Shown here one piece after another: positions 3,582-18,117 of a DNA stretch of 18,811 nucleotides (the first letter of the stretch is position 1; each line of letters starts with the position of its first letter). A model generated the notes under the pieces. The model worked only from the letters and a program-made list of their open reading frames with translations. It searched no databases and had not been told where the DNA came from. The position numbers and the translations under genes are program-made. The DNA is from an archaeon (GTDB lineage: Archaea; Thermoproteota; Nitrososphaeria; Nitrososphaerales; CADDZS01), in assembly GCA_021806865.1 (NCBI GenBank), contig JAKAPU010000035.1, forward strand, positions 1 through 18,811, given 5' to 3'.

Positions 3582-3606
3582 AGACGCCGGCCCCTTCTTA
3601 CGCATC

Positions 3607-3907: not shown

Positions 3908-3928
3908 TCGTAGTTGGTTAGATGTTCA

Positions 3929-4945
3929 ATGAGCGCTTCAATCATTGATGAATTCAAACAAAATGCTCGAGCACACCCTCAGCGTGTCGCTCTACCCGAA
4001 TCGGAAGACGCTCGGATCCTCAAAGCAGCGAGTGTGGTTTCTAAGGAGAGCATCGCAATACCAATTCTCATAGGAAAACAAGCAGTAATCAATGCTTTTG
4101 CAGATGCTCTTCACGTAGACCTTCAAGGAGTTGAAGTGATCGACCCTGAATCATTCTCAAAATTCGAAGAATACGTTGATCTCTACTCCAAGCGGAAGAA
4201 CGCTTCCACTAGAATCGCGCGAGCGCTACTGAAAAAGCCTCTGAACTTCGGATACATGATGACCGTGACTGGAGACGCGGCAGCCGTGATAGCAGGGGCC
4301 TTCCACACTTCTGCAGAGGTAATCGCTGCAGCGGATCTCGTCGTTGGTCTCTCTCCCGGAATTTCGATTCCTTCGAGTTTCTTTTTGATGGTAACACCAG
4401 GGTCAAGCTATGGTGAGAAAGGAGCACTCATTTTTGCCGATGCCTCGGTTAACCCAAACCCTGAACCAGAGTGCATGGCAGACATTGCGGCCGCAAGCGC
4501 AATGAGTGCTCGCACCATGCTTGGATGGGAACCAAGAATCGCGATGCTGTCATTCTCAACGAAGGGAAGCGCAGCCCACCCACTCGTTGACAAGGTGATC
4601 GCGGCGACAAGAATTGCTAGAGAGAAATTTCCTGACTTGATGATAGATGGCGAGCTACAGGCGGATGCGGCTCTAGTCCCGGAAGTTGCAAGGAGAAAAT
4701 TAACCGAACCAAGCCAGGTGGCAGGAAGAGCAAACGTCCTAATTTTTCCGGACTTGAATTCTGGAAATATCGCTTACAAGCTTGTCGAAAGGCTCGCCGG
4801 TGCGCACGCCTATGGACCAATCCTTCAGGGCTATTCGCGACCGATAAGCGACCTCTCTCGAGGAGCTAGTGTCGACGATATAGTCGGAACCATCGCGATG
4901 CTTTCTGTGCAGGCCCAAAGGTGGGCGCCACAGATCTCAGCCTAG
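3929..4945 (+). CDS. pta: Phosphate acetyltransferase, short single-domain type
   Basis: Pta transfers the acyl group of acetyl-CoA to phosphate, giving acetyl phosphate for acetate kinase. The 338-residue protein matches the short single-domain form (about 330). Motifs include RVALPESEDARILKAA near the N-terminus, GAFHTSAEVI, SSFFLM, FADASVNPNPEPE, MLSFSTKGSAAHP, IDGELQADAALVPEVA, ANVLIFPDLNSGNIAYKL and DLSRGASVDDIV. ATG 3929 is preferred; an in-frame TTG at 3914 would add five residues. It sits 21 bp after the ACP gene. Related acyltransferases such as PlsX accept acyl-ACP, so an ACP-linked substrate is conceivable, but the conserved motifs argue for ordinary Pta chemistry. The butyryl homologue Ptb is less likely. 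Confidence 0.95.
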   Translation: MSASIIDEFKQNARAHPQRVALPESEDARILKAASVVSKESIAIPILIGKQAVINAFADALHVDLQGVEVIDPESFSKFEEYVDLYSKRKNASTRIARALLKKPLNFGYMMTVTGDAAAVIAGAFHTSAEVIAAADLVVGLSPGISIPSSFFLMVTPGSSYGEKGALIFADASVNPNPEPECMADIAAASAMSARTMLGWEPRIAMLSFSTKGSAAHPLVDKVIAATRIAREKFPDLMIDGELQADAALVPEVARRKLTEPSQVAGRANVLIFPDLNSGNIAYKLVERLAGAHAYGPILQGYSRPISDLSRGASVDDIVGTIAMLSVQAQRWAPQISA

Positions 4946-5012
4946 CCTGGATCAGAATCTCACAATCGAAAACGTTGCAGCAGTGCGGTGAAGAGCGCCT
5001 AACACAGAATCA

Positions 5013-5387
5013 TCATTCCAAAACGCAGAAGGCAACCGCGTATTCGGAATCATACGAAAGACTCAGGAAGACCTCCTCCACGCCTTTTCTTCTAGCCAGC
5101 TTTTCAATGCCTCCTCCAAGCTCTACGATGGGGGCGCCAAGTCGATTTCGCTTTATCTCGATGTCTGTTCCCTTCCCTGCCGCCCAACCCACGCCGAACG
5201 CTTTCAGGATACTCTCTTTAGCAGCAAAGAGAGTTGCGTAATATTCTGCCTTGCCTCCCTTCCTCTTAGAGGATCGAGAGATCTCACCTTCCGTGAATAA
5301 TTTGTTGAGAAACTTCTCGCCACTCGTATCCATGATGTCGGCTATGCGTTTGATCTCCACCAGATCTACGCCTATGCCCTTAACCAT
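5013..5387 (-). CDS. acpS: Holo-[acyl-carrier-protein] synthase
   Basis: AcpS moves 4'-phosphopantetheine from CoA to the serine of apo-ACP. The 124-residue protein has the family length. GIGVDLVEIKRI carries the metal ligand Asp8, and FAAKESILKAFGVG carries Glu58 and the lysine that define the family. The C-terminal LSLSYDSEYAVAF corresponds to the usual SISHD segment with His replaced by Tyr. ATG 5387 places the first conserved strand right at the N-terminus; upstream in-frame starts up to 5438 add an unlikely basic extension. An AT-rich box at 5404-5418 is about 25 nt upstream, which fits a leaderless message. It converges on pta and is 1.1 kb from the ACP gene, its obvious substrate. Confidence 0.9.
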   Translation of the reverse strand: MVKGIGVDLVEIKRIADIMDTSGEKFLNKLFTEGEISRSSKRKGGKAEYYATLFAAKESILKAFGVGWAAGKGTDIEIKRNRLGAPIVELGGGIEKLARRKGVEEVFLSLSYDSEYAVAFCVLE

Positions 5388-5403
5388 GTGCCTAATACGG
5401 AGT

Positions 5404-5418
5404 TTATTCTTACTTATC
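5404..5418 (-). promoter_or_regulatory. AT-rich TATA-like region for acpS
   Basis: The minus strand reads GATAAGTAAGAATAA, centred roughly 24 nt upstream of ATG 5387. This would give a leaderless or nearly leaderless acpS message. Confidence 0.35.
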
Positions 5419-5485
5419 GGTTGCGAGCGGTAATACACTTGAACTCAAAACATGGAATGAAAGCAATTGACAGTCTAAGCAATCA

Positions 5486-5493
5486 GATAAAAT
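5486..5493 (+). promoter_or_regulatory. TATA-like box before the 202-residue protein
   Basis: GATAAAAT is centred about 25 nt upstream of the GTG at 5515, which is consistent with a leaderless transcript and supports that start. Confidence 0.45.
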
Positions 5494-5514
5494 CTCAAAG
5501 AAGATTTCAGGTAA

Positions 5515-6123
5515 GTGGCCGATGTCTGTTTCAGATTTTCGCTCAGCAATGTCAAAGTCGTCAGAGTAAGCGTCGAAAAGAAATCAAAGACGGGAGTCTT
5601 TGGGAGCGATTTTGTTTCAGGCGGTCTGAAGGATTTCCCCGTTGTCTATGAGGATGGATATTGGATTGTGGTAAAGTCTGAGTTGTCTCCATCTAACGTC
5701 GAAGATGCAATTCGAGAAGCCATCCTAGTGGAATTAGGTTCGAAACCATCAATCTACCTAGAGACTAAAGAGTCCTACCTAATTGTTGCATCGTGGAAGG
5801 GTTCGACTATTGAAGAGCAAGACCTGTTCAAACGAATCGGTCAAAAGATAATGTCGACCAATCTGATATTGGACGAAAGTCGTCTCGCTGCAATGAAGAA
5901 GCGACAGAAGTTGGGCGAATTTGAGCATGATGCGCTGGTCGTAGTTAGAGAAGGAAACGCGCTACGTCTCTGGGAAAAATATGGAAGAACTATAGAGGAG
6001 TTAGAGAAACTAGGATCCGTCAGACGAAAGAAAACTGGTGGTCGGCTTAATCGCTCGGAGAAGTTCGAGCTGACGCCAGAGGGATATGATGCAATGGAAA
6101 AGAGCAAGCGAAGTAGATGGTAG
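5515..6123 (+). CDS. Unknown soluble protein, 202 residues
   Basis: I do not recognise this protein. The first 70 residues are beta-rich with VYEDGYWIVVKSEL, the middle (about 70-130) alternates helices and strands, and the C-terminal 60 residues look like a small helix-turn-helix or winged-helix unit (ALRLWEKYGRTIEELEKLG, then a basic RRKKTGGRLNRSEKF and FELTPEGYDAM), similar in style to archaeal DNA-binding domains. No signal peptide or membrane span is seen. It is flanked by acpS (divergent) and the 3' end of etfB (convergent, 29 bp gap). GTG 5515 is chosen because it is positioned 25 nt after a TATA-like box. A transcription-regulator role for the neighbouring operons is possible but unproven. 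Confidence 0.75.
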   Translation: MADVCFRFSLSNVKVVRVSVEKKSKTGVFGSDFVSGGLKDFPVVYEDGYWIVVKSELSPSNVEDAIREAILVELGSKPSIYLETKESYLIVASWKGSTIEEQDLFKRIGQKIMSTNLILDESRLAAMKKRQKLGEFEHDALVVVREGNALRLWEKYGRTIEELEKLGSVRRKKTGGRLNRSEKFELTPEGYDAMEKSKRSRW

Positions 6124-6152
6124 GACTTCGTTTTTCAATCATCGTCTTTTTG

Positions 6153-6944
6153 TTAGCCAATGCCAGTCGTTTCCTTGATTATCTCGACAAGCTTGTGTGC
6201 TATCTCTTGCGAGCTCCCGGTGAGAAACTCTCCTCTTCGAGACGGTGTTGGAAGGCTCTTTGTTTCCTTCACGATTGTGTAGGAGCCTTGCGCCCCCACT
6301 TCACTTGCATTGAGCTGCAGGTCTTCTAGATTCCAAGTTGTGAGCTTGAATTCTCTCTCCACCCATCTCTTTCTTCTAAAATCTGGAAATCTTGGAGAGT
6401 TGCATCCTAGCTCAACGCTTATCAGCACAGGTAGTGCAGTCTCTATCATTTCGTAGCCTCCCGTGATCACTCTTCTGGCGACTATCTTTGAATCTTCTAT
6501 CTTGACATCGTTCGCGTAAGTGATTTGCGGAATGCCCAGCCACTCTGCAATGCTGGATGGTACTTGCTCCGTGCTTCCATCGGACGAAGCTTCTCCGCAA
6601 AAAACCAAGTCAAACGCTCCGGTCTTCTTAATGCCTTGGGCAAGAACTCTCGAAGTCGCAAAAGTATCTGCTGCCGCAAAGCTCCTATCAGTCAAAAGTA
6701 TCGCATCATCGGCTCCCATCGCGACTGCAAGCTTGAGGTATGGTTCGAACGACGGCGGCCCCATCGAGATCACCGTGATCGTTCCTCCATGCTTTTCTTT
6801 GAGACTAAGCGCAGCTTCGAGAGCGTTTTTGTCCGCCTCGTTGATCTCGTTTTCTACGCCTTCCCGAATTATCGTTTTCTTTTGCTCGTTGAATTTGATC
6901 TGGTCGACCTTCGGTGTTATCTTCAAGCAGACAAGTTGTTTCAT
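6153..6944 (-). CDS. etfB: Electron transfer flavoprotein, beta subunit
   Basis: EtfB (263 residues) pairs with EtfA to form a soluble heterodimeric flavoprotein that carries electrons between dehydrogenases and other redox proteins. Seen: N-terminal MKQLVCLKITPKVDQI, an NEADKNALEAALSLKEKHGG segment (beta-subunit AMP/FAD domain), VISMGPP, AVAMGADDAILLTDRSF, and the family DGSTEQVPSSIAEWLGIP stretch. Length is normal. It is the last gene of the kor-hdr-etf operon, 24 bp after etfA. Whether this ETF is a bifurcating type cannot be settled by eye; the HdrA/HdrD neighbours make a bifurcation-like role plausible. Confidence 0.93.
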   Translation of the reverse strand: MKQLVCLKITPKVDQIKFNEQKKTIIREGVENEINEADKNALEAALSLKEKHGGTITVISMGPPSFEPYLKLAVAMGADDAILLTDRSFAAADTFATSRVLAQGIKKTGAFDLVFCGEASSDGSTEQVPSSIAEWLGIPQITYANDVKIEDSKIVARRVITGGYEMIETALPVLISVELGCNSPRFPDFRRKRWVEREFKLTTWNLEDLQLNASEVGAQGSYTIVKETKSLPTPSRRGEFLTGSSQEIAHKLVEIIKETTGIG

Positions 6945-6968
6945 TTCTTTCTCATAGCTCCCATCGAA

Positions 6969-7955
6969 TCATGACTTTGCCAGCTCTGAATTGAGAAGAG
7001 GCAGTATCTCAAACACGTCCGCATTGACGCAGTAATCGGCCTGTTTGAAGATCTGCGATTTCGGATCGGTATTTATTGCGATCACCTTTTTGACATCGCG
7101 AATTCCAGAAACGAAATGCGCGGCCCCGCTCACGCCAAGAACGATTGCAAGCTCTGCATTAAGGCTCGAACCGGTTGACCCTACAACGTGTTCCCTGTCG
7201 TAGAGACCTCTATCAGCAACGGGCCTCGAAACAGCAAACTCGGCATTAATCTCTTCGGCAAGCTTCTTTGGTAGAGCAAGATCCTTGCACCCAAGTCCCG
7301 CGACCACAACTCTTTCCGCGCGACTGATCTCTTTTGTTCGTTTCACGTTTCTTTCAAGCACATTGCACTTCTTGTCAGCTTCTGACAGATTCAATTTGAT
7401 ATACTCAATTTGTGTCTTGTTGCTCTTCAAAGGCTCAAGTGGTTTGAATATGCCGGGCCTGACAGTTGCCATCTGAGGTCTTCCCTTGCTGCACTTGCAT
7501 ACGGAAACGATGCTTCCTCCAAAACCTGGCACAGAGCCCAGCAGCATCGCTGTTCCTTCTTCTATTTCGAGATCAATGACATGTGCCATCAGTCCTGCTC
7601 CCACTCTTACTGCCAGGCTTGCGGCAAGGCTCGCCCCGTTGTGCGTAGCTCCAATCAATAAGCTGTCAGGATCCCTTTCCTTTATCAATGAGGCGACGAC
7701 CTTAGAATAAGCTTCTGTCGTGTAATCCCTTAGGAGCGGAGAATCTCCCGCGAAAACAATATCCGCCCCCCTTGTCGAAACGTCCCGTGCCAGTTCCGAA
7801 ACATTCTCTCCGAGAATGACTGCGGCCACACTACTACCAAGTCTGTTCGCTATTTCTCTTGCCTTGCCAAGTACTTCAAGAGAGACTTGCTCGATGATTC
7901 CGTCGGTCTGCTCTACGAATACGAATATCTCGTGTTTGGAATCCGTTACATTCAT
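6969..7955 (-). CDS. etfA: Electron transfer flavoprotein, alpha subunit
   Basis: EtfA (328 residues) binds the FAD of the ETF heterodimer. The C-terminal FAD domain is clear: VGSTGSSLNAELAIVLGVSG, HFVSGI, VIAINTDPKSQIFKQADY and a closing FEILPLL. The N-terminal half begins EIFVFVEQTDG and contains LLIGATHNGASLAASLAVRVGAGL, the usual domain-I core. Start ATG 7955 follows a GGGGTTGAG-rich stretch and lies 36 bp after the hdrD stop. The partner hdrD-type protein resembles FeS oxidoreductases that exchange electrons with ETF in archaeal fatty-acid and alkane oxidisers, which is the best hint to its function here. Confidence 0.94.
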   Translation of the reverse strand: MNVTDSKHEIFVFVEQTDGIIEQVSLEVLGKAREIANRLGSSVAAVILGENVSELARDVSTRGADIVFAGDSPLLRDYTTEAYSKVVASLIKERDPDSLLIGATHNGASLAASLAVRVGAGLMAHVIDLEIEEGTAMLLGSVPGFGGSIVSVCKCSKGRPQMATVRPGIFKPLEPLKSNKTQIEYIKLNLSEADKKCNVLERNVKRTKEISRAERVVVAGLGCKDLALPKKLAEEINAEFAVSRPVADRGLYDREHVVGSTGSSLNAELAIVLGVSGAAHFVSGIRDVKKVIAINTDPKSQIFKQADYCVNADVFEILPLLNSELAKS

Positions 7956-7991
7956 CTACTCACTCAACCCCTTGTATCCTCCAATCCAATC

Positions 7992-9161
7992 TCACTTTCT
8001 TGATCTCAAAGAATCGTTAAGCAATTCCGAGACATCCCTGACTATGAGCTTCATTCCTTTGGTCTTGGCGGCATCCTCGAAATTCTGTATACAGTAGGGA
8101 CAGGACGTAGCAAGAACGGTGGCGTTTGTTTCCGCGGCCTGAGATACTCTTTCATGGCTGGGACGAACGGTCTCATTTTCGTTCCACATCTGACCTCCAC
8201 CACCACCGCAGCAAAGTGCATTGTCCTTGTTGTCTTTCATTTCAATCAGAGTGATTCCATGTATGCTCTGCAGGATCTTTCTGGGTTGCTCATAGATCCC
8301 ATAATATCTTCCCAGATAGCAGGGGTCATGATACGTAGCAGCGATGTTGTTCTTCTCTGGAGAATCTGTACTTCCATTGAAACTCAGATCCACATGATCT
8401 ACGAATTCCGAAAGTATCTCTGTGTAGTGAACCACATTTGGCATCTTGCCAAAATGCGGATAGACGTTCTTGAACATGTTAAGGCAGTGCGGAGAAACCG
8501 TCACCAACGTTTCTACCTTGTTTTCATTGAACATCTTGATGTTTTTCTCGGCAAGCTCTTCGAGGAAACCCTCTTCTCCTATCTGATAGGCAACATCGCC
8601 GCAGCAACTCTCGCTCTCTCCTAGAATGGAAACTTCAGCTCTCGCCTTTTGGAAAACTTCAATGACGGAGCGCGCAACGTTCTGCAATCTCGGATCGTAT
8701 GAAGATGCGCATCCTGTGTAGACCACGTACTTTGAAGACTGTTTGTTGGTCTGGCCAACCACAGGAACATTCAGCCCATCGGCCCATTTCCCCCTTTCAC
8801 TCTTTTTGCCGCCGTAGGGATTGCCTTGTTCGTAAATTCCCCACAGGGCCTGCTCAAGTTTCTGTGGTGCTTTTCTTGCCTCAAACGAAAGCACTCTGAG
8901 CGAGTGAAGAATATCTGTGATGCTCACTCCTCTAGGGCATTGCAGTTCGCAAAGCTTGCACGCGGCACAGCTCCATAGATTGCCGCCACTTAGTGCGTCA
9001 CTCTTTGATCCTACTTGGATGTCGCGCAGGAGTTTCCTCACTTGAACACCAAGCGGGCAAGATGCGGTGCAAGTCCCACACTGGTAGCACAGTGATGCCG
9101 TTGTTCCACCAATCTCTTCTATCTTGGTTACAAGTGATGTGTCAAATACGAGCGCGCACAT
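7992..9161 (-). CDS. hdrD: HdrD-like FeS protein (HdrC-HdrB fusion)
   Basis: A 389-residue cytosolic FeS protein. The N-terminal HdrC-like domain has two 4Fe-4S sites: Cys25, 28, 31, 35 (CYQCGTCTASCP) and Cys65, 68, 71, 75 (CAACKLCELQCP). The C-terminal HdrB-like part has two CCG cysteine-rich domains: YTGCASSYD, ESCCGD, SPHC and then YHDPCYLG, ALCCGGGGG, TSCPYC. In HdrB such motifs hold noncubane 4Fe-4S clusters that reduce disulfides, but many relatives act in other redox reactions. No membrane segment is visible. ATG 9161 is preferred, with GGAG 9 nt upstream; a TTG at 9170 would overlap the hdrA stop as TTGA. Its position between hdrA and etfA suggests it links HdrA to ETF. The symbol denotes architecture rather than proven heterodisulfide activity. 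Confidence 0.88.
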   Translation of the reverse strand: MCALVFDTSLVTKIEEIGGTTASLCYQCGTCTASCPLGVQVRKLLRDIQVGSKSDALSGGNLWSCAACKLCELQCPRGVSITDILHSLRVLSFEARKAPQKLEQALWGIYEQGNPYGGKKSERGKWADGLNVPVVGQTNKQSSKYVVYTGCASSYDPRLQNVARSVIEVFQKARAEVSILGESESCCGDVAYQIGEEGFLEELAEKNIKMFNENKVETLVTVSPHCLNMFKNVYPHFGKMPNVVHYTEILSEFVDHVDLSFNGSTDSPEKNNIAATYHDPCYLGRYYGIYEQPRKILQSIHGITLIEMKDNKDNALCCGGGGGQMWNENETVRPSHERVSQAAETNATVLATSCPYCIQNFEDAAKTKGMKLIVRDVSELLNDSLRSRK

Positions 9162-9166
9162 GTTCT

Positions 9167-12100
9167 TCAACTCCGCTTTCCCGGAACCCTGATCCTCAAA
9201 GTAGTCGAAGCGAGCTCATCCTCAGAAAGTTCAAGCACGAACTCGCTCATCTCCTTAGCCTTTTGTTGGAATCTCTTGCCCTCCGCGGCGCTCACCCACC
9301 ATAACTGTAACCTATCTTCGTTTACACCTCTAGTTTTCAGCGCATGCCTCCATTTTTCGACTCTCTTCCGGGTGTTCTCATTCGCATTGATGTAGTGGCA
9401 ATCTCCTATGTGGCATCCTGTAACAAGCACTCCTCCTGCACCTTTCGAGAAGGCGTACATCACAAGCTTTTGTGAAACTCTTCCAGAGCACATAGTTCGG
9501 ATGATTCTTGTGCTGGTTGGATACTGCAATTTCATGACGCCAGCTAGATCGGCGCCGGCATAAGAACACCAGTTGCAAGCGAAAATTAGCAGTTTCTTCT
9601 TGGCATCTTCCTCGAGCGCAGCGTCAACCTGTGCCATTACCTGTTCGTCCGTGAATCCTTCTTGTGTCAGGGCACCATCTACCGTGCACTCAGCTACGCA
9701 TGTTCCACATCCCTGGCACATCGCGGAGATGAACTCTATGCTCTTGCCCAGCTGACCCTTTATCGCGCCGTAGGGACACACGACCACACACCGTTGGCAT
9801 TTCGTGCACTTGTCCAAATTCACTACAGCGACAAATGGATCACGTTCTATCTCATTCTTTGAGATTATCGTTGCTGTTTTGGCTGCGGCGGAAAGAGCTT
9901 GGATGCAAGATTCGCGAACGGTCTTTGGATATTGAGCGGTGCCCGCAATAAAGACTCCTGCCGTGGCGGCTTCGGCGGGACCGAGCTTTGGATGGCTCTC
10001 CAAAAGGAAGCCGTTTTGGTCTGTCGAAACCTTGAGCTGCTGTATCACACCTCCCTCTTCCTTCACGGGCGTAAGTCCAATATTTAGGACAAGGAGGTCC
10101 GTAGGTATCGACACTTCTTTCGCGACGAGTTCATCCTTGAGAACTATTGATCCTCCTTCAATCCTCATCGCCTTTTCGGGAGTCTGATCATGAGGATATT
10201 GGACGAAGACGACTCCGTTCCTGCAAGCCTTTTCGTACTCCTCTTCTCCGAACCTTGAGAAAGTTCTCAAATCCTTGTAGAGAACCTTCACATCATTTCC
10301 ATTTTCTTTGAGCTTGTTTGCTTGTCCCATCATCGTCTGGCAACAGTATCTTGAACAGCCCATGGAATCGTTTCTAGATCCTACACAGGAAACTATGGAC
10401 ACTTTCTTATCTCGAATGTGATCGATGCTACCCTCAAGCTCAAGAGATGTAACTATGTCTGGATTCGTTCCGTATCCAAATTCGCTCGGCTTGTAAGGGT
10501 CTGCGCCGGTAGCTAGGATGACCGTCCCCACAGCGAGATGCGTGCCATCAGTGAGATGCACATCAAAGTTTCCGACAAACCCACTGATGCTGTCCACCTT
10601 GCTGTTTGTGTGAACCACTGCCCCGCTCTGATCTAGCTCTTCTTGCAGCTGGCGCAGGATGTCCCTCGATTTGATTCCGAGAGGTGCAATCTCAGATATT
10701 TCATTCACTATTCCGCCCAGACGATCTCTCTTCTCGACCAAGTGTGTTTCGAAACCCTGACCGGCCAAGTTAGCTGCGGCCACCATTCCAGCGACTCCTC
10801 CGCCAACAACGAGAGCAACTTGAGTTACGGGAAACCTCATCGGATCAAGAGATTTCATGTTTAGGGCTTTTAGGACGCCCATCTTCACCATGTCCTTTGC
10901 TTTCCGAGTTGCTCCTTCTTTGTCCTCCTTGTGCACCCAGCTGTCCATATTCCTGATGTTGGCCATTTCCAAGAGGTACGGGTTCAACCCCGCACGTTCA
11001 AGCGAACCCTGAAATGTTGGATAATGAGTCTTTGGAGAACACGATGCGACGACTACGCGATTGATCTTCTTGTCCTTGATGACTTGGCTGATGTCGGTGA
11101 GCGTGTTTGCGGCGCACGAATACATCTGATCTTGAGAATGGACCACTCTGGGCAAGGTGCTGGCGTAATCGACTACTTGCTTCACATCGACCGTTCCAGC
11201 GATGTTTGAACCACAGTGACAAGTAAAAACGCCTACTCGCGGTTCACCCTCTGAAGCGAGCTTGATTATTTGAGCAGGTTCCGGCCAACTCTTGGAGGTT
11301 ACGTGAGTTAGGGCTTTGGCAGTGGCTGCGCCTGCCTCCATCACACTGTCTGGAATGTCCTTCGGCCCAGTTGCACAACCCGCAAGATAGATCCCTTTTC
11401 TTGAGCTGTTTACGAATGCTCCTTTCTCATCCATCGTCTTGAAGAATCCATCTTCTCCAAGATCAATACCGAGAGTTTTTGCTAGCTCCTCCGTCCCTGC
11501 TTTTGGAATGGCTGCTAGCGCGAGTACCACAAGGTCGTATTTTTTCCTCTGCATGGAGAAACTACCACTTTCGGTATCTTCGAAGAAAACATTCAATCCA
11601 TCACTTCCAGGGGTAACTTTTGCAGGCCGCCCTCGAGTGAATCTTACGCCCGAATCCAGTGTTCTATCAAAGAAATCATCAAAGCCCTTACCATAAGCTC
11701 TAATGTCCATGTATGCCACATCGACTTCGTTGATTCCATGGTCCTTGAGTTGGTAGGCTTCCTTGATGCTGTACATGCAACAGATTCTCGAACAGTAGTC
11801 TTGATGCCTTTTGTCCCTTGAGCCTGCACACAGAACGAAAAGCACGTTCTTCGGATGTTGGCTGTCGGACGGTTTGAGCACTTCCCCCATAGTCGGACCC
11901 GAAGCTTGGAGCATTCTTTCAAGTTCCATCGACGTAATCACGTCGGGATGCTTCCCGTATCCGTATTCGGTCAGGTACTCTCCGTTCAGGATGTCGAATC
12001 CGGTTGCAACTATAAGGGCTGCCACGTCGCGCTCGATTCTCTTTGGCCTCAAGTTGAAGTCGATCGCAGCCGGACCGCAAGCGTCTGTGCATCTGCTGCA

Positions 12101-12613
12101 TGGAAGATAGTTCGGAAGTTCGTTCAGGCAATTGTCCTGGTCAATTACGTAAGCGCCTGGAACGGATTGCTCAATTGGAGTATAGATTGCCTTCCGCACT
12201 GCCATTCCAAAATCAAATTCATTCTTCAAAATCACTGGGCAAACTGGAACGCATTCTCCGCACCTCGTGCAAGCGTCGGTAACAAAACGAGGTGACTGGT
12301 TGATGACTGCCTTGAAGTGACCGGCTTCTCCATCCAGTTTCTTGACCTCTGCCAGACTCAGGAGCTCGATATTGGGATGAAGTCCAACCTCGCTCATCTT
12401 CGGCGATTCGATGCAAATCGAACAGTCAAGCGTTGGGAAATTCTTGTCGAGCACAGACATCTTTCCTCCGACTGTGCCCTCTTTTTCAACAAGCACTGCC
12501 TTGGCTCCAGCGTTGGCCGCATCGAGAGATGCCTGTATCCCTGCTATGCCTCCACCAATGATGAGTATTGTGTCAGATCCTGGGGAATGACTGTTCATCT
12601 GCGATTTACTCAC
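9167..12613 (-). CDS. hdrA: Double HdrA fused to MvhD, FAD/FeS protein
   Basis: A 1148-residue flavoprotein. Module 1 (about 1-445) is HdrA-like: FAD loop GGGIAG at 20-25, 4Fe-4S cysteines 115/118/121/125, a second set 162/172/175/179, and the HdrA hallmark CSRICC at 274-279. Module 2 (about 455-925) has the HdrA N-terminal domain (FTCHCGSNIAG, ASCSPKTHYPTFQ, AGLNPYLLEMANIR), a second FAD loop GGGVAG at 604-609 and CSRYCC at 753-758. Then come two ferredoxin clusters (936-946, 966-976) and an MvhD/FrhD domain (about 1005-1140; Cys1013, 1016, 1042, 1067, 1072). HdrA is the flavin-based bifurcating subunit of heterodisulfide reductase. Here MvhD is fused but no MvhAG hydrogenase follows, so electrons must come from another donor such as ferredoxin or ETF. 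GTG 12613 overlaps the korC stop as GTGA; ATG 12598 is an alternative. Confidence 0.93.
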   Translation of the reverse strand: MSKSQMNSHSPGSDTILIIGGGIAGIQASLDAANAGAKAVLVEKEGTVGGKMSVLDKNFPTLDCSICIESPKMSEVGLHPNIELLSLAEVKKLDGEAGHFKAVINQSPRFVTDACTRCGECVPVCPVILKNEFDFGMAVRKAIYTPIEQSVPGAYVIDQDNCLNELPNYLPCSRCTDACGPAAIDFNLRPKRIERDVAALIVATGFDILNGEYLTEYGYGKHPDVITSMELERMLQASGPTMGEVLKPSDSQHPKNVLFVLCAGSRDKRHQDYCSRICCMYSIKEAYQLKDHGINEVDVAYMDIRAYGKGFDDFFDRTLDSGVRFTRGRPAKVTPGSDGLNVFFEDTESGSFSMQRKKYDLVVLALAAIPKAGTEELAKTLGIDLGEDGFFKTMDEKGAFVNSSRKGIYLAGCATGPKDIPDSVMEAGAATAKALTHVTSKSWPEPAQIIKLASEGEPRVGVFTCHCGSNIAGTVDVKQVVDYASTLPRVVHSQDQMYSCAANTLTDISQVIKDKKINRVVVASCSPKTHYPTFQGSLERAGLNPYLLEMANIRNMDSWVHKEDKEGATRKAKDMVKMGVLKALNMKSLDPMRFPVTQVALVVGGGVAGMVAAANLAGQGFETHLVEKRDRLGGIVNEISEIAPLGIKSRDILRQLQEELDQSGAVVHTNSKVDSISGFVGNFDVHLTDGTHLAVGTVILATGADPYKPSEFGYGTNPDIVTSLELEGSIDHIRDKKVSIVSCVGSRNDSMGCSRYCCQTMMGQANKLKENGNDVKVLYKDLRTFSRFGEEEYEKACRNGVVFVQYPHDQTPEKAMRIEGGSIVLKDELVAKEVSIPTDLLVLNIGLTPVKEEGGVIQQLKVSTDQNGFLLESHPKLGPAEAATAGVFIAGTAQYPKTVRESCIQALSAAAKTATIISKNEIERDPFVAVVNLDKCTKCQRCVVVCPYGAIKGQLGKSIEFISAMCQGCGTCVAECTVDGALTQEGFTDEQVMAQVDAALEEDAKKKLLIFACNWCSYAGADLAGVMKLQYPTSTRIIRTMCSGRVSQKLVMYAFSKGAGGVLVTGCHIGDCHYINANENTRKRVEKWRHALKTRGVNEDRLQLWWVSAAEGKRFQQKAKEMSEFVLELSEDELASTTLRIRVPGKRS

Positions 12614-13182
12614 CTTGAAATCTGCTCCTGTTGCTGGCCATACGGTTGCCGTAGCGTAGAGCCGATCTCGAAGCCGCGATCTAGTGCTTTCATGTTGAGT
12701 TCAGCGGACTTTGCAAATCGATCGGCAGTTGCTCTTTTCACGTCCTCTAATGAAACGGCCTCGCACACTGCTGGGACAGCCCCAAGCATCACAACGTTTG
12801 CGATCATCTTCTTTCCAAGAGATTCTGCAGTGGCTATTCCAGGAACAGCAATCGCTCGGAGATCCTTTCGCGCGTTTCCAAGATTCACTAGCCGACTCTC
12901 GGCAATTACTGTTCCTCCCATCTTCATCATCTTCAAATTCAAATCCAGGCCTTCTTGATACATTGTCAGCAGGACATCGAGTTTTGTGACAAGTGGATAA
13001 TCGATTGGCTTGTTAGAGACAATCACGTCGGCTCTCGACCATCCACCTGTCACGTAAGGACTGTAGCCTTCTGTGACGACAGCCTCTTTTCCACCGTAAA
13101 TGACGGCTGCTCTTCCCAGGACGTTTCCTACGGTTATTGCGCCCTGCCCACCTATTCCTGTGAATCTAAATTCCCACCTCAT
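12610..13182 (-). CDS. korC: 2-oxoacid:ferredoxin oxidoreductase, gamma subunit
   Basis: A 190-residue gamma subunit. The N-terminus FTGIGGQGAITVGNVLGRAA is the family signature, followed by YSPYVTGGWSRADVIVS and MYQEGLDLN. It completes the four-subunit enzyme that oxidatively decarboxylates a 2-oxoacid with CoA to acyl-CoA and reduced ferredoxin, or runs in reverse. The start is ATG 13182, 24 bp after the korB stop with GGAG in the gap. The 3' end overlaps the hdrA start by GTGA. Kor (2-oxoglutarate) is preferred over Vor (branched-chain) because of the D-A-B-C gene order; the substrate cannot be proven from sequence alone. Confidence 0.88.
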   Translation of the reverse strand: MRWEFRFTGIGGQGAITVGNVLGRAAVIYGGKEAVVTEGYSPYVTGGWSRADVIVSNKPIDYPLVTKLDVLLTMYQEGLDLNLKMMKMGGTVIAESRLVNLGNARKDLRAIAVPGIATAESLGKKMIANVVMLGAVPAVCEAVSLEDVKRATADRFAKSAELNMKALDRGFEIGSTLRQPYGQQQEQISR

Positions 13183-13206
13183 TTCTTCAAATCAAACTCC
13201 CTAAAT

Positions 13207-14079
13207 TCACTTTTGTGATCTCCCTTGCAGCTCGGAAAGAAGCTCCTGGTACGATGGGCGCTTCCTATCAACGAAATTGCCCACGATGATTCTATCATCA
13301 GTGTTTGTGGAAACCTGGATCGTGGAGAGATCTGCCATATCGTCAACTACACTCTTTTCTCGAAAATGTTTCATCATGTCCAATGCTTGAGGATAGCCAT
13401 TGAATTCCCCGTAGGTAGGAGGGCAAGGAGAAAGAACCTCAAGAAAGGCAAATCCCTCAATCTCCATCATTCTTCGAATAGCCTTCGAGACCTGCCTAAC
13501 GTGCAACGCTGTCCAGCGCGCAACGAAGGATGCTCCGGCCGCCGCAACCAAGTAAGGCACGTTGAAAGGAGATTCTACGTTTCCAAATGGTGTTGTATGC
13601 GTTCTTGCTCCCAGAGGGGTGGTCGCTCCGTGCTGGCCGCCTGTCATTCCATAATTGAAGTTGTTCACCATGATGACATTTAGGTCAACATTTCTTCTTG
13701 CGGCATGAATCAAATGATTCCCGCCGATGGTCGATATGTCTCCATCCCCTGCTATCACAAAGACTTCAAGATCTGGTCTGGAGACTGCAATCCCGGTTGC
13801 GAATGCGATTCCTCTGCCGTGAGTGGTGTGGTATGAGTCTTGGCGAAGATATCCTGAAAATCGACCGGTGCAGCCGATTCCAGAGACAACGATCTGCTTC
13901 CCGATTGGCGTCGCAGATTTCGCGACCGCGTTCACGTAAGCGGTAAGCACTATGCCTATGCCGCAACCAGGACACCAAATGTTGGGAAGCCTTTCTGACC
14001 GCAGCATTTCATCCATGGGGTGCTTGGAGGAAATCATCTCCCTCCAGCCTCGCATTGTCTTGGGAGATTGCTCTGTCAC
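13207..14079 (-). CDS. korB: 2-oxoacid:ferredoxin oxidoreductase, beta subunit
   Basis: A 290-residue thiamine-diphosphate subunit. LPNIWCPGCGIG is the start of the conserved beta fold, GIGCTGRF and HGRGIAFATGI follow, and the ThDP/Mg motif GDGDISTIGGNHLIHAARRN runs into VIMVNNFNYGMTGGQ. Its own FeS cysteines appear in WCPGCG, GCTG and near SPCPPTYG. The GTG at 14079 gives a GTGA overlap with the korA stop and the expected length; a farther upstream ATG at 14163 would lie wholly inside korA and add 28 unconserved residues. It is the second catalytic subunit of the kor enzyme and sits between korA and korC. Confidence 0.92.
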   Translation of the reverse strand: MTEQSPKTMRGWREMISSKHPMDEMLRSERLPNIWCPGCGIGIVLTAYVNAVAKSATPIGKQIVVSGIGCTGRFSGYLRQDSYHTTHGRGIAFATGIAVSRPDLEVFVIAGDGDISTIGGNHLIHAARRNVDLNVIMVNNFNYGMTGGQHGATTPLGARTHTTPFGNVESPFNVPYLVAAAGASFVARWTALHVRQVSKAIRRMMEIEGFAFLEVLSPCPPTYGEFNGYPQALDMMKHFREKSVVDDMADLSTIQVSTNTDDRIIVGNFVDRKRPSYQELLSELQGRSQK

Positions 14080-15224
14080 CTCGCAACCACCTCTAATGCG
14101 TCGAGTATCGCCGCTGGATCGATTAGCTGACCAGGTGCGTCGTTGACCCCGATTACGGGGCACTTTGCATTCTCTTTGATAGGATGGATTATCTGGCCAT
14201 AGTTTATCTCAGGGACGATTATGTTGTTGACCTTCCGGCTGGCTCTTTCAACAACTGCGTCTGGAAAGGGCCACGGAGTGATTAGTCTCAATAGACCTGC
14301 CTTGATTCCCTTCGCCCGAGAGCTCTTCACAGCCGAGAGTGCGGAACGCGAAGTCGAACCGTAAGCGATTACAAGCTCTTCGGCGTCATCAGTCATGAAC
14401 TCATCCCATTTCCAAATCTCGTTAGCGTGATCCCTTACCTTCCCAAGCAGATGGCTAAGCATGTTCTCCGAAACGGAGTGATCCGTGCTTGGATATCCTC
14501 TGGTATCATGCGTGAGGCTGTCGATGTTAGTGTAAGTGCCTCTCCCAGCAATGGGCATAGGAGCAAAATCGTCATTGTAATCAAACGGCATATCCCTGCT
14601 CCCTGGCTCCAGAATCTTCCGGTTTGCGATCTCGATCTTTTCGATTGGCGGAACTACTAGGCGCTCCCACATCGTTCCAATTATTTGGTCCGCCATCACA
14701 AAGACAGGTGTCCGAAATCTTTCTGCGGTGTTAAAGGCCGCTATCGTCAGGTCGAAGAACTCTTGAACGCTGTTCGGAGCGTATGCAATCGTTTCCAAAT
14801 CTCCGTGCGAGCCCCATCTCGATTGCATCATGTCGCCCTGTCCAACCAGCGTTGGTATTCCGGTGCTAGGCCCTGCCCTTTGGACATTGATTATTACAAT
14901 TGGAGCCTCGGTGATGAAAGCCAGTCCAATATTTTCCATCATCAAGCTGAATCCCGGCCCCGACGTCGCCGTCATAGCTTTGTTTCCTGCAAACGATGCT
15001 CCGACAAGCGCTGCGGCACTCGAAATTTCGTCTTCCATCTCAATCGCGTAGCCGCCAACTTGAGGGAATCTTATCGAAGCCCTCTCAAATATCTCGGAGG
15101 ACGGTGTGATCGGATAGCCGGCATAAAATCTGCAGCCAGCAATTAGCGCAGCTTCCACTGCAGCAAAATTTCCCATCATGAAGTACGTGCCTGGCTTTAG
15201 GTCAAACTTTCCATAGACGCTCAT
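14076..15224 (-). CDS. korA: 2-oxoacid:ferredoxin oxidoreductase, alpha subunit
   Basis: A 382-residue alpha subunit. [19 protein letters not shown] and [15 protein letters not shown] are the family opening, followed by [39 protein letters not shown] and [13 protein letters not shown], then [15 protein letters not shown] and the C-terminal transketolase-like domain ([13 protein letters not shown]). These domains hold the pyrophosphate side of ThDP and the CoA region together with korB. Length is normal. ATG 15224 overlaps the korD stop by ATGA. With korB, korC and korD it forms a complete oxygen-sensitive enzyme feeding ferredoxin to the Hdr/Etf genes downstream. Confidence 0.93.
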
Positions 15225-15562
15225 TGAATGGGCTTGACCTCCTCAACGTAGATCGCGAATTCCGGGCATATCCATTCGCACATACCGCATTTGACGCAGT
15301 CACTCTCTTTGCCTTGCTTAACTCTTGGATGATGATAGCCGAGCGAGTTTATCTCTGTCGAGACCTCCAAGACCTCCTGCGGACAAAATGTCCAACAGTA
15401 ATTGCACTCTTTACACCGTTCAGGAATTATGAAAACACGCCCGATGGGCCTTTCGTATCGATTCTTGTTGATCGGCTCCCGAATGAGTCCACCTCCTGTT
15501 CGCCGCTCTACCCTCGCGACGACGGGGGAATGCAAATTCTTCAACTTTGAATCCAAAATCAT
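15221..15562 (-). CDS. korD: 2-oxoacid:ferredoxin oxidoreductase, delta (ferredoxin) subunit
   Basis: A 113-residue 2x[4Fe-4S] ferredoxin-like subunit. The cluster cysteines lie in [12 protein letters not shown] and [12 protein letters not shown], spaced by a PQEVLEVS and LGYHHP segment typical of the delta subunit. It passes electrons from the korAB active site to soluble ferredoxin. It is the first gene of the eight-gene operon. ATG 15562 lies about 27 nt after a TATA-like AATAAATG, which implies a leaderless message. The N-terminal 40 residues before the first cluster are basic and unusual in length for this subunit. Confidence 0.9.
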
Positions 15563-15584
15563 GCTAAACTACGAAGGTAATGAG

Positions 15585-15592
15585 CATTTATT
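15585..15592 (-). promoter_or_regulatory. Predicted kor-hdr-etf operon promoter with half-site
   Basis: The minus strand reads AATAAATG here, 27 nt before the korD ATG. It is overlapped by a lone TATTGGA half-site at 15589-15595, the same half-site that makes up the palindrome 30 bp to the right. A protein bound there would occlude the TATA box. Confidence 0.5.
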
Positions 15593-15612
15593 GGATTGGA
15601 GCGAGGCGGAAT

Positions 15613-15620
15613 CTTATATT
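15613..15620 (+). promoter_or_regulatory. TATA-like box for the 360-residue regulator-like gene
   Basis: CTTATATT lies about 44 nt upstream of ATG 15661, so transcription would begin near 15643. The palindrome 15617-15635 overlaps its downstream half, as expected of a repressor operator. Confidence 0.5.
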
Positions 15621-15635
15621 GGACCAAGTCCAATA
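15617..15635 (+). repeat. Inverted repeat TATTGGA-N5-TCCAATA, copy 1
   Basis: Perfect 7-bp arms with a CCAAG spacer; counting the paired C and G at the spacer edges, the arms are 8 bp. It lies in the divergent promoter gap between korD and the 360-residue protein. An identical arm sequence with the same 5-nt spacer length occurs at 16734-16752. It probably acts as an operator. Confidence 0.6.
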
Positions 15636-15660
15636 ATTGACGAAAGCTTAATCTTACTCC

Positions 15661-16743
15661 ATGCCTAACTACACTGCCATGCCCGTCGGCAAGGGGCAGG
15701 TTCCTCTTTGTCTTCTTGGGTCGTTTACTCCTGACCAGTGGACAGAAGAATTATATGTTAGAGCGCCACCTTTCGTCGTGGAGAACACTGCCGGCAGGGT
15801 CCAGGTCATTCCCTTCGACTCTGAAACTCTTGAAATTCTTGATAACCTCACCCGTTCACTTGGTCTTGTAAAGAGAAAACAAGAATACGTCAGATACATC
15901 GTCAACAGAAGCGACTCGATTAAGGCACTTCGATTGTTCGACTGGTTTGTGAGAAGGAGCTGGAGAGACAAACGATATGCCGTTCTTTGGGCAATCCTCT
16001 ACATCGGAGAGGTAAAACGCTGGTCTCACCCGAAAATATCTCTAGAATCAGTATCAGAGATGGCACGTTGCGATCCAAAGATCTGCGGCGAGATCATGCA
16101 GAACATACTGGACGGAGTTGCGGCTCCAAGCAAGATTCTTGGTTACGTAGAATACGATCTGAAAAGGGACAGAGCTACGACATTTTTGAACGACCTACTG
16201 AAAGAGCTCCCCACTTGGACGGAGGAAATGGTAATGAAATCTCTCTGCTCTGGGATGGGGGGCTCGGTCGAAGACGTATACGAGCGGATAATGTTCCAGG
16301 GTCTTGGCATCGAAGCTGCGTACAAGACAGTCGAGCGATTGAAGCAAACGGGCTATGTGTATGCCGCTAGATATTACAGAGTAAATGACCGCGGACCAAT
16401 GAGAGAACAGCTCGCGGCAAATTGCAGAAATTGTTTCTATGGATACTCAAATGAAGATAGGTGCCTAATGGACACTCTTCGGCAGATTGAAAGCAACATT
16501 TCAAGATACTACAACAGGCAACTGTCCGAGGACGAAAAACAGTCTCTTTACTCATCAATAAAGCGCATCCCGCTGAGCTCACGTGTCAGCAGACGAGTGC
16601 TAGAGTCACTCGATCTCATCCATGAAGTCGAGACTATGACCAATGAAAGGGGTGTTTTGAACGTGTTGAACAAGATCGAGGAAGGGCATGGGATTGAGTT
16701 CCCGATCAGAAAAACTCCAAAAGGCAACGAGAATATTGGATAA
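15661..16743 (+). CDS. Unknown Cys-containing protein, likely DNA-binding regulator
   Basis: A 360-residue protein I do not recognise. It is mainly helical after residue 50. Two stretches look like DNA-binding folds: residues 125-150 (SLESVSEMARCDPKICGEIM) read like a helix-turn-helix, and 203-240 (SVEDVYERI, then AAYKTVERLKQTGYVYAARYYRV) read like a winged helix. Cys137, Cys142 and Cys196 are scattered, and Cys255, Cys258 and Cys268 form a C-x2-C-x8-C group that could hold a metal or FeS cluster. It is divergent from the kor-hdr-etf operon and framed by two copies of one inverted repeat, so an autoregulated redox- or metal-responsive regulator of that operon is the favoured idea. ATG 15661 follows a TATA-like box; ATG 15679 is an alternative start. 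Confidence 0.75.
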   Translation: MPNYTAMPVGKGQVPLCLLGSFTPDQWTEELYVRAPPFVVENTAGRVQVIPFDSETLEILDNLTRSLGLVKRKQEYVRYIVNRSDSIKALRLFDWFVRRSWRDKRYAVLWAILYIGEVKRWSHPKISLESVSEMARCDPKICGEIMQNILDGVAAPSKILGYVEYDLKRDRATTFLNDLLKELPTWTEEMVMKSLCSGMGGSVEDVYERIMFQGLGIEAAYKTVERLKQTGYVYAARYYRVNDRGPMREQLAANCRNCFYGYSNEDRCLMDTLRQIESNISRYYNRQLSEDEKQSLYSSIKRIPLSSRVSRRVLESLDLIHEVETMTNERGVLNVLNKIEEGHGIEFPIRKTPKGNENIG

Positions 16744-16754
16744 TTTCCAATATT
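16732..16754 (+). repeat. Inverted repeat copy 2, spanning the stop codon
   Basis: AATATTGGA and TCCAATATT form perfect 9-bp arms around TAATT. It contains the core TATTGGA-N5-TCCAATA (16734-16752) seen also at 15617-15635. The TAA stop of the regulator-like gene is in the spacer. It may be an operator for the downstream small zinc-ribbon genes, whose TATA-like box begins 26 bp later, or a terminator hairpin; the exact match to copy 1 favours an operator. Confidence 0.6.
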
Positions 16755-16779
16755 GACCTCTCACTAGAATATTACCACA

Positions 16780-16790
16780 TTTTAATATTT
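16780..16790 (+). promoter_or_regulatory. TATA-like box for the zinc-ribbon pair
   Basis: TTTTAATATTT lies about 50 nt upstream of ATG 16838, so transcription may begin near 16811 and leave a leader of some 27 nt. It is just downstream of inverted repeat copy 2. Confidence 0.4.
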
Positions 16791-16837
16791 CTTGTGACCC
16801 GTTAACACTAGGTGAACGCCTGGGAAGCGCGCATGAA

Positions 16838-17008
16838 ATGTCAACTGTGTTTCGGACACGTTATGACACGAGAATAGGAGTTGTTAGGCATTGCCCTAAA
16901 TGCGGTGGAGAGCTCAACTCAGAAGATAGCTGCAAAGATTGCACGTATTCCGATGAGGAATACCTCACTCCAGAAGAAGCTCGGGAATTCACTTTCGCGG
17001 GGGATTGA
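16838..17008 (+). CDS. Small zinc-ribbon protein A
   Basis: A 56-residue protein with a C-x2-C-x9-C-x2-C ribbon: Cys19 and Cys22 in HCPKCGGEL, Cys32 and Cys35 in SCKDCTYS. The C-terminus is EEYLTPEEAREFTFAGD. The function is unknown; such ribbons bind zinc and often serve nucleic-acid or protein contacts. The start ATG 16838 keeps the whole ribbon. It is followed after 4 bp by a paralogue with the same layout. The matched cysteine pattern and the repeated LTxEEAREF/Y ending are strong evidence that both genes are real. Confidence 0.75.
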   Translation: MSTVFRTRYDTRIGVVRHCPKCGGELNSEDSCKDCTYSDEEYLTPEEAREFTFAGD

Positions 17009-17012
17009 TCGG

Positions 17013-17186
17013 ATGGAGTATGCATTGGAAAGAAAGGAACAGGTCCCTAAGGCCCTGTATTCTACGTACTGTCCCAAATGTGGAATGATTGTTCCTAGTC
17101 CAGATGCGCCTTGTCTCTGGTGTAACTATTCGATCGAAACCGAGTTGACATCTGAGGAAGCAAGGGAATACACTCATTCTGACTAA
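17013..17186 (+). CDS. Small zinc-ribbon protein B, tandem paralogue
   Basis: A 57-residue protein with Cys20 and Cys23 (YCPKCGMIV) and Cys34 and Cys37 (PCLWCNYS), ending ETELTSEEAREYTHSD. It aligns with protein A along the ribbon and the C-terminal LTxEEARE tail, so the two arose by tandem duplication. ATG 17013 is chosen because the upstream part of a longer open frame only shadows protein A. The 4-bp gap implies cotranscription. Function unknown. Confidence 0.75.
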   Translation: MEYALERKEQVPKALYSTYCPKCGMIVPSPDAPCLWCNYSIETELTSEEAREYTHSD

Positions 17187-17280
17187 AGCTCATTCGCTAC
17201 GGATATACTAGCCGAACCCTTCCTTTAACAGTTTCTTCCTTGGCACTCTCAGAGCTCGTCTATTGATCTTAACAAGGAAC

Positions 17281-17478
17281 TTATGCCTTCAACCTGCCAA
17301 GCAAATCCCCTTCCAAAGAATATTCACCCTGCCAGATCAGCAAGTGCTTGCGCGACTTTTTTTTGCGCCCTCTCATTCGCAACTTTATCCCACATTCATT
17401 AGATCTGTTGCATGTCACTTTCAGGAAGCCTGTATGCTCTAATATATGCTTGTTACGAACTCGTATCTTCCAATCCAT
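17281..17478 (-). CDS. Doubtful small basic ORF, 65 residues
   Basis: The minus-strand frame starts at ATG 17478 (MDWKIRVRNKHILEHTG) and gives a basic protein with two cysteines (TCNRSNEC) and a RGRKKKSRK patch. No TATA box or Shine-Dalgarno is seen, and the start lies on an inverted repeat arm. The mixed hydrophobic-basic composition is protein-like, but the evidence is thin. Confidence 0.3.
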   Translation of the reverse strand: MDWKIRVRNKHILEHTGFLKVTCNRSNECGIKLRMRGRKKKSRKHLLIWQGEYSLEGDLLGRLKA

Positions 17479-17507
17479 TTCTGTTCGCGGAAAACGGTGG
17501 ATTGGAA
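17468..17507 (+). repeat. Inverted repeat TTCCAATCCA...TGGATTGGAA
   Basis: Perfect 10-bp arms at 17468-17477 and 17498-17507 with a 20-nt loop. The arms contain TCCAAT and ATTGGA, the same hexamers as in the palindromes at 15617 and 16732, but in the outward arrangement. Confidence 0.45.
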
Positions 17508-18109: not shown

Positions 18110-18117
18110 GTCAGAGC

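Follow-up and report, generated by a model that had tools for sequence, protein, structure and literature searches.

The korDABC-hdrA-hdrD-etfAB block and its conservation

The 18,811-nucleotide stretch of archaeal DNA analyzed herein (contig JAKAPU010000035.1, positions 1 to 18,811; the window) carries a block of eight genes, korDABC-hdrA-hdrD-etfAB, that brings together a 2-oxoacid oxidoreductase (Kor), an HdrA flavoprotein with an Fe-S protein labeled HdrD, and an electron transfer flavoprotein (ETF). All eight open reading frames (ORFs) lie on the minus strand, and each exceeds the Pfam cut-off for its expected family:

korD, 15221..15562, minus strand: delta subunit of the 2-oxoacid oxidoreductase, with two [4Fe-4S] motifs and two Fer4 domains (Pfam)
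korA, 14076..15224, minus strand: alpha subunit with the YPITP motif; POR_N at 2.2e-62, NCBIfam NF006412 at 489 bits (cut-off 411)
korB, 13207..14163 as drawn, minus strand: beta subunit, binding thiamine pyrophosphate (TPP); TPP_enzyme_C at 5.7e-31
korC, 12610..13182, minus strand: gamma subunit; POR at 5.5e-29
hdrA, 9167..12613, minus strand: 1148 amino acids (aa); fused double HdrA with flavin adenine dinucleotide (FAD) domains and a C-terminal MvhD/FlpD domain; FlpD at 1.7e-46
'hdrD', 7992..9170, minus strand: 392 aa; putatively soluble EtfD/FadF-like Fe-S protein with HdrC-like clusters and two CCG domains; CCG at 1.6e-34
etfA, 6969..7955, minus strand: ETF alpha; ETF and ETF_alpha (Pfam); Val142 replaces the b-FAD N5 arginine
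etfB, 6153..6944, minus strand: ETF beta from the lineage of bifurcating ETFs, its b-FAD and NAD motifs altered; ETF at 3.8e-41

The HdrA product additionally matched the NCBIfam HdrA2 profile over its cut-off. Overlaps of 4 base pairs (bp) join korD/korA, korC/hdrA, and hdrA/hdrD, and gaps of 24, 36, and 24 bp separate korB/korC, hdrD/etfA, and etfA/etfB, respectively. The korA/korB overlap is 88 bp as drawn and shrinks to 4 bp with a korB start at GTG 14079, which is likely the true start and would give a protein of 290 aa, near the length of most homologues. The layout thereby confirms a first-pass annotation, made from the sequence without database searches, that had described eight same-strand genes with start/stop overlaps and short gaps; its statement that genes for hydrogenase and formate dehydrogenase are absent likewise holds within the block. 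Promoter and terminator scans returned 4 sites against 8.2 expected and 11 against 9.2 expected, respectively.

Beyond the window, 30 homologous loci were found through HdrA similarity: 5 on database contigs, 9 in a survey of 400 genomes of the class, and 16 in a survey of 398 genomes of the phylum (class and phylum being those of the genome carrying locus L001). The gene order is the same in 30/30, and all eight genes are present in 23; the other 7 loci end at a contig edge, as in L002, where korD and part of korA are missing at the contig start, and L004, where etfA and etfB are missing at the contig end. This conservation of order exceeds chance and extends to loci whose lowest identities to the window fall in the range 33-51% (33% for HdrD, 45% for HdrA). 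The refuting case named at first pass, homologues in which the modules are never neighbors, does not hold: the modules stay adjacent in all 30 loci selected by full-length HdrA, and the genes thus behave as one unit.

Within the class survey, 23/400 genomes matched HdrA and 12 carry an operon-type HdrA; no kor or etf gene was found near nine other HdrA genes of that survey (L077-L085), the contexts in G048 and G032 being left out. In the phylum survey, 40/398 genomes matched; the block is present in each of the 17 rows scoring above 1100 bits and absent around four weaker rows (L121-L124). Lower-scoring HdrA loci therefore lack the block in 13/13 contexts inspected, while its absence from the remaining class genomes is judged by HdrA similarity alone. 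Identity of korA is 68-75% in L106, L110, L112, and L114 (hdrA 54-55%) versus 54-58% in L107-L109, L111, and L113 (hdrA 55-56%). Because the HdrA distance is alike in both sets (54-56%) yet kor is much closer in the former, the lineages may have exchanged their kor genes. One carrier of the eight-gene block, G477, is putatively Vulcanisaeta distributa IC-017T, a cultured anaerobe of biosafety level 1 requiring sulfur or thiosulfate that uses peptone, casamino acids, and gelatin (PMC3035369).

Domain architecture and key residues

The Kor enzyme comprises four subunits and is closest to characterized 2-oxoglutarate oxidoreductases (OGORs). Specifically, the closest solved structures to KorA are 1yd7 (a 2-keto acid oxidoreductase) and then 8ys5 (2-oxoglutarate synthase), and chain C of 8ys5 is closest to KorB; we take 1yd7 to be the Pyrococcus, 8ys5 the Helicobacter, and 6n2n the Magnetococcus enzyme. 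The cluster cysteines of KorD are kept in 28/28 family members, and YPITP and the carboxylate arginine are invariant across Kor family members. Within the pocket, the K49b equivalent is Arg in 27/27 and the D468a equivalent Leu in 28/28, as in the aligned OGORs; pointing the other way, a K49R change favored pyruvate in StOFOR1 (PMC5020499).

HdrA had been read at first pass as a flavoprotein of the bifurcating type, which fits the key residues kept, although its architecture is corrected herein to two HdrA units in one chain that also carries an MvhD domain:

HdrA N-half, residues 14-440, 11294..12574, minus strand: FAD domain with an inserted two-cluster ferredoxin domain; N-terminal domain absent
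HdrA C-half, residues 456-1002, 9608..11248, minus strand: N-terminal Fe-S domain, FAD domain, and C-terminal ferredoxins; inserted ferredoxin absent
HdrA MvhD-like [2Fe-2S] domain, residues 1006-1130, 9224..9598, minus strand: FlpD at 1.7e-46, 5odc_D at 3e-36

The N-half aligns to ~149-574 of solved HdrA (8rwn_A), and 539 residues of the C-half align to 5odc_A. Across 31 chains, the N-half retains Cys197 and Lys409 in 31/31 (C67 and K284 in the window), together with every ferredoxin cluster cysteine examined, and its Glu356 equivalent is Glu in 26 and Asp in 5. The C-half (n = 31) keeps the cysteines of the N-terminal domain in 31/31, is without Cys197, and has Lys at the Lys409 position in only 6. 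Lys409 and Glu356 have been taken as bifurcation marks in HdrA (PMC12054007), and complementary occurrence of Cys197 and the N-terminal domain as the sign of a self-contained heterodimer (PMC9012536). By these published marks, the residue pattern predicts that the chain is a fused heterodimer with one bifurcation-competent flavin, located in the N-half, and the retention of the bifurcation residues makes it plausible that HdrA couples the electrons of Kor with those of ETF. The AlphaFold model of HdrA has a mean pLDDT of 76, its inserted ferredoxin region being poor. In three genomes, hdrA is split at an identical boundary between the FAD modules and the ferredoxin-MvhD part, giving products of 842-857 aa and 298-299 aa (L004 9986-13452; L005 9947-13368; L068 7272-10699).

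The best solved match of 'HdrD' is 9ojn (6.6e-56), followed by HdrC (1.4e-18) and HdrB (2e-5). We take 9ojn to be mycobacterial EtfD because its length (1042 aa) fits PMC13083937; only EtfD 403-747 aligns to 'HdrD'. EtfD is described as having a linear cluster in D1 and a noncubane cluster with His583 in D2, for which the ligands are listed (PMC13083937). In the first CCG domain of 'HdrD', corresponding to D1, the C581 equivalent is Ser in 29/29 covering members and the C584 position holds Cys in 16, Ser in 9, and Val in 4 (n = 29), with the C503 and/or C538 equivalents also lost in L004, L005, L067, and L068. In D2, by comparison, the equivalents of C637, C672, C673, and His583 are kept in 29/29 covering members, and those of C709 and C712 in 27/27 (L075 being incomplete and, for the last two, also L004 and L117). 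The histidine in question, His228, aligns with EtfD His583, which is noncatalytic. FadF and DgcB are also without D1 cysteines and are thought to act with ETF (PMC13083937).

The first-pass label of heterodisulfide reductase (Hdr) is thus not borne out. Because the first CCG cluster is without a ligand and a noncatalytic histidine is present, such a role is unlikely, and two intact CCG motifs with supernumerary cysteines do not occur; closest to EtfD/FadF, 'HdrD' appears instead to be a soluble electron wire for ETF. Its 392 aa are filled by the HdrC-like and CCG parts and leave no room for a membrane or heme domain serving quinone, although no separate transmembrane prediction was made.

EtfA and EtfB score highest against five solved bifurcating ETFs (termed group 2; PMC6085437), above canonical ones. 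The N5 arginine of b-FAD (R205 of LctC) is replaced by Val in 27/27 operon EtfA proteins, a set comprising the window and 26 loci; L004, L068 (hidden by an overlapping ORF), L075, and L076 (both cut) are missing from it, and the HdrD, EtfB, Kor, and P360 sets are likewise without truncated or unlabeled members. A copy of EtfA on another L004 contig also has Val, as do all 120 database homologues listed of 842, the window's own protein included, and 10/10 distinct non-operon EtfA proteins from G001-G005 have Arg. In Ldh-EtfAB, R205A abolished bifurcation, and NADH:dichlorophenolindophenol (DCPIP) activity was retained (PMC9232219). The motifs of bifurcating ETFs (DGDTAQVGP, RxFxG, and SPT) are partly kept, and FAD or NAD may still bind there: D122 and T125 are kept in 27/27, D124 is lost in 27/27, the SPT proline is lost in 26/26 covered, and RxFxG is variable; further, EtfA has no ferredoxin domain of the kind found in CarE and LctC. 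By its scores, the block ETF descends from bifurcating ETFs, and the first-pass view of it as a bifurcating module finds no support given the lost N5 arginine. A second bifurcation site at the ETF is accordingly disfavored by the Arg-to-Val exchange.

Flanking genes and genome background

The ends of the block are constant and its flanks vary. Another 2-oxoacid oxidoreductase set adjoins it in 8/30 loci (L001, L067, L105, L107-L109, L111, and L113), as checked by Pfam for L001, L067, and L108. In L105, L107-L109, L111, and L113, this second set (korC-, ferredoxin-, korA-, and korB-like genes of ~26-29% identity) lies just past the divergent gene P360 described below; that of L108 contains POR_N and PFOR_II by Pfam. 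In L110, L112, and L114, an acyl-CoA-synthetase-like AMP-binding gene, a methyltransferase gene, and an acyl-CoA dehydrogenase gene follow past P360, ~4 kb from korD (L110 10605-13999; L112 1-3416; L114 3-3265, its methyltransferase left out of the Pfam scan), and this row, present in three related loci, may act in a common pathway with the block. As a functional clue, the flanking genes were nonetheless dropped, given the housekeeping genes that adjoin L108 and L116, the transporter on one flank of L112, and a nearby acyl-CoA dehydrogenase in L110, L112, and L114 only. In G503, which also bears the block, a second HdrA of 1255 aa and an HdrC-like gene adjoin four genes of a different 2-oxoacid oxidoreductase (L121 4450-11913; POR_N and TPP_enzyme_C by Pfam), so that an HdrA adjoining a 2-oxoacid oxidoreductase occurs twice in that genome. 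Elsewhere in the window we noted the following:

P360, 15661..16743, plus strand: divergent from korD; predicted winged-helix protein, linked to the block by position only
202-aa gene, ending at 6123, convergent to the block: no PHROGs or NCBIfam match
1848-5438: adjacent genes for a thiolase, a DUF35-type OB protein, an acyl carrier protein, a phosphate acyltransferase, and a 4'-phosphopantetheinyl transferase, forming an acyl-carrier-protein set that is, to our knowledge, unusual for archaea
18118-18725, plus strand: gene for a small ThiS/MoaD-like protein, in overlap with a 103-aa gene without a known family

P360 homologues accompany 16/30 operon loci; in 15 of these the gene diverges from korD, and in L067 it lies downstream of etfB. 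The protein has predicted winged-helix elements (pLDDT 86), four invariant cysteines (C196, C255, C258, and C268), no Pfam, PHROGs, or NCBIfam match, and weak structural matches (best E 1.6e-4; TM to query 0.12-0.21). It may regulate the operon as an Fe-S or redox-sensing protein.

Across the genomes that carry the operon, acyl-CoA dehydrogenase genes and further ETF genes are present in 30/30, and each of the 14 genomes searched for POR_N has 3-7 such genes. In the class survey, acyl-CoA dehydrogenases occur in 12/12 operon genomes versus 155/388 others (p 2e-5, with kinship ignored). A heme-copper oxidase scores over cut-off in 25/30. CofD was found in 11/30, and not in G477, G503, or G508, whose largest contigs, of 2.3-2.4 Mb, approximate the whole genome, which rules out F420 as a general mid-potential carrier. 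Fer4_ETF_QO matches occur in 21/30 genomes at E<=1e-3 (16 over cut-off); several adjoin other ETFs (e.g., G001:C137, G355:C12, and G041:C65), and a match in G023, 1.2 kb beyond korD, is by score better classed as an ordinary dicluster ferredoxin. Fer4_ETF_QO is therefore a weak marker of an ETF:quinone oxidoreductase (ETF:QO).

A possible electron-coupling complex and its relation to known systems

We propose, with a probability of roughly 0.45, that the products of the eight genes form a single soluble complex for flavin-based electron coupling, in which HdrA would couple the electrons of Kor and ETF, confurcation being the likeliest direction in heterotrophs. KorDABC would oxidize a 2-oxoacid (2-oxoglutarate or one derived from amino acids) to acyl-CoA and CO2, giving low-potential electrons, and EtfAB would serve as a nonbifurcating shuttle exchanging high-potential electrons with acyl-CoA dehydrogenases. 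Between them, the FAD of the HdrA N-half would be the single bifurcation-competent site, wired to EtfAB by the EtfD-like 'HdrD'. Of three putative ports on HdrA (the inserted ferredoxin, HdrD, and MvhD), two would be occupied by Kor and ETF, leaving the third to a diffusible carrier of mid potential. During confurcation, one electron pair from Kor and one from acyl-CoA oxidation would meet at HdrA and exit at mid potential, probably via the fused MvhD, to the carrier. The potentials of 2-oxoacid decarboxylation and acyl-CoA oxidation lie near -0.5 V and near 0 V, respectively, high potential is the usual working range of ETF, and the breakdown of Leu, Ile, and Val would give both electron pairs 1:1. 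What survives of the confurcating complex of Kor, HdrAD, and ETF envisaged at first pass is thus a set of genes that act as a unit and a plausible coupling at HdrA; an Hdr-type HdrD and a bifurcating ETF drop out of it.

In favor of such a complex are the constant gene order between changing flanks, the residue patterns of HdrA, 'HdrD', and ETF, the acyl-CoA dehydrogenases of all operon genomes and their enrichment in the class survey, the acyl-CoA dehydrogenase row near three loci, the second 2-oxoacid oxidoreductase sets beside 8/30 loci, and the use of peptone and casamino acids by the putative V. distributa. Several observations count against it. The loci were chosen by HdrA similarity, and many 'HdrD' members, the window's included, keep most of the first-CCG cysteines, which leaves room for a modified cluster at that site. 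The block contains no gene for a partner of mid potential. Further, no acyl-CoA dehydrogenase match was found in the stretches read of the 27 loci other than L110, L112, and L114, some acyl-CoA dehydrogenase genes adjoin other ETFs, and the 155/388 class genomes that have these enzymes without the operon dilute the association. Finally, because heme-copper oxidases are present in most of the operon genomes, the energy-saving argument made for strict anaerobes does not directly apply.

The same oxidases lend weight to a linear 2-oxoacid:ETF oxidoreductase, in which Kor electrons would pass through HdrA, acting only as a wire, and HdrD to EtfAB, and from there to quinone via an ETF:QO encoded elsewhere or to NAD+ at ETF beta. 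We consider this rather unlikely. It would waste the Kor-ETF span of ~0.4-0.5 V, and the HdrA N-half keeps Lys409, Glu356 (or Asp), and Cys197, which a wire would not need. The ETF without its own bifurcation arginine and the Fer4_ETF_QO matches, weak marker though they are, fit a linear route, as does the NADH:DCPIP activity retained by R205A Ldh-EtfAB (PMC9232219); if true, respiring archaea would gain a dedicated drain for Kor electrons.

Co-regulation of separate enzymes, with KorDABC as an ordinary enzyme that depends on ferredoxin, HdrA and HdrD as a complex of their own, and ETF apart from both, all working in one pathway and forming no joint complex, appears improbable: the gene order is unbroken in every locus down to 33-51% identity, the block offers HdrA no other partner gene, and the Val form of EtfA in every block copy tested suggests that the ETF is a dedicated partner. 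Nevertheless, as is generally known, Kor, Hdr, and ETF act independently elsewhere, and kor and hdrA divergence differs between lineages. Reductive use, whereby a mid-potential donor would be bifurcated, half going to ETF (enoyl-CoA or quinone) and half to Kor carboxylation of acyl-CoA for carbon fixation or glutamate synthesis, seems very improbable. It gains from the general reversibility of Kor enzymes, but the operon genomes include the putative heterotroph V. distributa, the acyl-CoA dehydrogenases in 30/30 fit oxidation, and other enzymes could serve 2-oxoacid synthesis given the 3-7 POR_N genes in each genome searched. HdrA complexes have nonetheless been proposed to be bidirectional in methanogens and methanotrophs (PMC9012536).

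Returning to the HdrA-coupled complex, a further-reaching and more tentative claim is that it represents an undescribed class of confurcation, in which electrons from two successive steps of amino-acid carbon oxidation, the Kor reaction and acyl-CoA dehydrogenation (the latter through a soluble EtfD and an ETF no longer bifurcating), would be averaged at one HdrA flavin, with bifurcation moved from ETF to HdrA, within a single phylum whose archaea include anaerobes and oxygen respirers. If conserved as a unit, Kor-HdrA-EtfD-Etf would reveal a way for archaea to dispose of Kor electrons together with those released when acyl-CoA is oxidized, and would extend HdrA coupling to oxidase-bearing archaea. 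The labels "HdrD" and "bifurcating ETF" are misleading for the block proteins. No description of a Kor-Hdr-Etf operon was found in the open-licence full-text literature, which misses most subscription journals and supplements, and within that literature the first-pass statement that an operon joining the three modules is undescribed has held. Specifically, no such operon appears in the available portions of PMC9012536, PMC12054007, PMC9723716, PMC10640624, PMC10833072, PMC2702500, PMC5861303, and PMC6085437, although the Vulcanisaeta genome annotation may hold the block genes without comment.

The HdrA systems on record draw on H2, formate, F420H2, or NADH (PMC5861303), and the available text of a survey of twelve bifurcating systems does not contain the word "2-oxoglutarate" and has two words beginning with "Kor", of which one or both are Korarchaeota (PMC6085437). 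The block resembles HdrABC-MvhADG and HdrABC-FdhAB of methanogens, and HdrA2B2C2, in having an HdrA with a bifurcating-type FAD, an MvhD, and HdrC-type clusters. It differs from them in that Kor is the donor module in place of hydrogenase, formate dehydrogenase, or F420H2, an EtfD-like protein stands for HdrB, the partner is ETF and not CoM-S-S-CoB, and two HdrA units share one chain. Closer in this last respect are the type II double HdrA proteins of anaerobic methanotrophic archaea (ANME) and methanogens (HdrA3/HdrA4 in PMC9012536; PMC12054007), which have two FAD modules per chain and a complementary Cys197 and N-terminal domain. The half order is described differently in these two papers, and the block HdrA fits the A6-then-A12 order of PMC12054007. 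In type II HdrA, however, both residues are present in 75% of sequences and both modules are read as competent (PMC12054007), whereas the block HdrA conserves Lys409 only in its N-half and has a fused MvhD; moreover, type II clusters carry FdhAB-like genes in the available text, and not Kor and Etf. MetFV-HdrABC-MvhD of Moorella thermoacetica (PMC5861303, PMC9012536) likewise has a double HdrA partnered by a flavoenzyme, in that case methylene-tetrahydrofolate (methylene-H4F) reductase.

On the ETF side, 'HdrD' shares with the ETF:menaquinone oxidoreductases EtfD, EMO, FadF, and DgcB its CCG domains, D2 noncubane ligands, His583, and ETF partner, but at 392 aa it has no room for their membrane domain and is placed with HdrA, not with quinone. 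HdrF3-EtfBA of Desulfobacterium autotrophicum similarly sets an Hdr-like CCG protein beside EtfBA and has been proposed as an electron acceptor of beta-oxidation; HdrF is membrane-bound, however, and neither Kor nor HdrA is named there in the available portions (PMC2702500). Lastly, although the block EtfA and EtfB score highest against the bifurcating ETFs (CarCDE, Ldh-EtfAB, Bcd-EtfAB, A. fermentans Etf, and EtfABCX), they depart from these in the N5 Arg-to-Val exchange, the loss of D124 and the SPT proline, and an EtfA without a ferredoxin domain.

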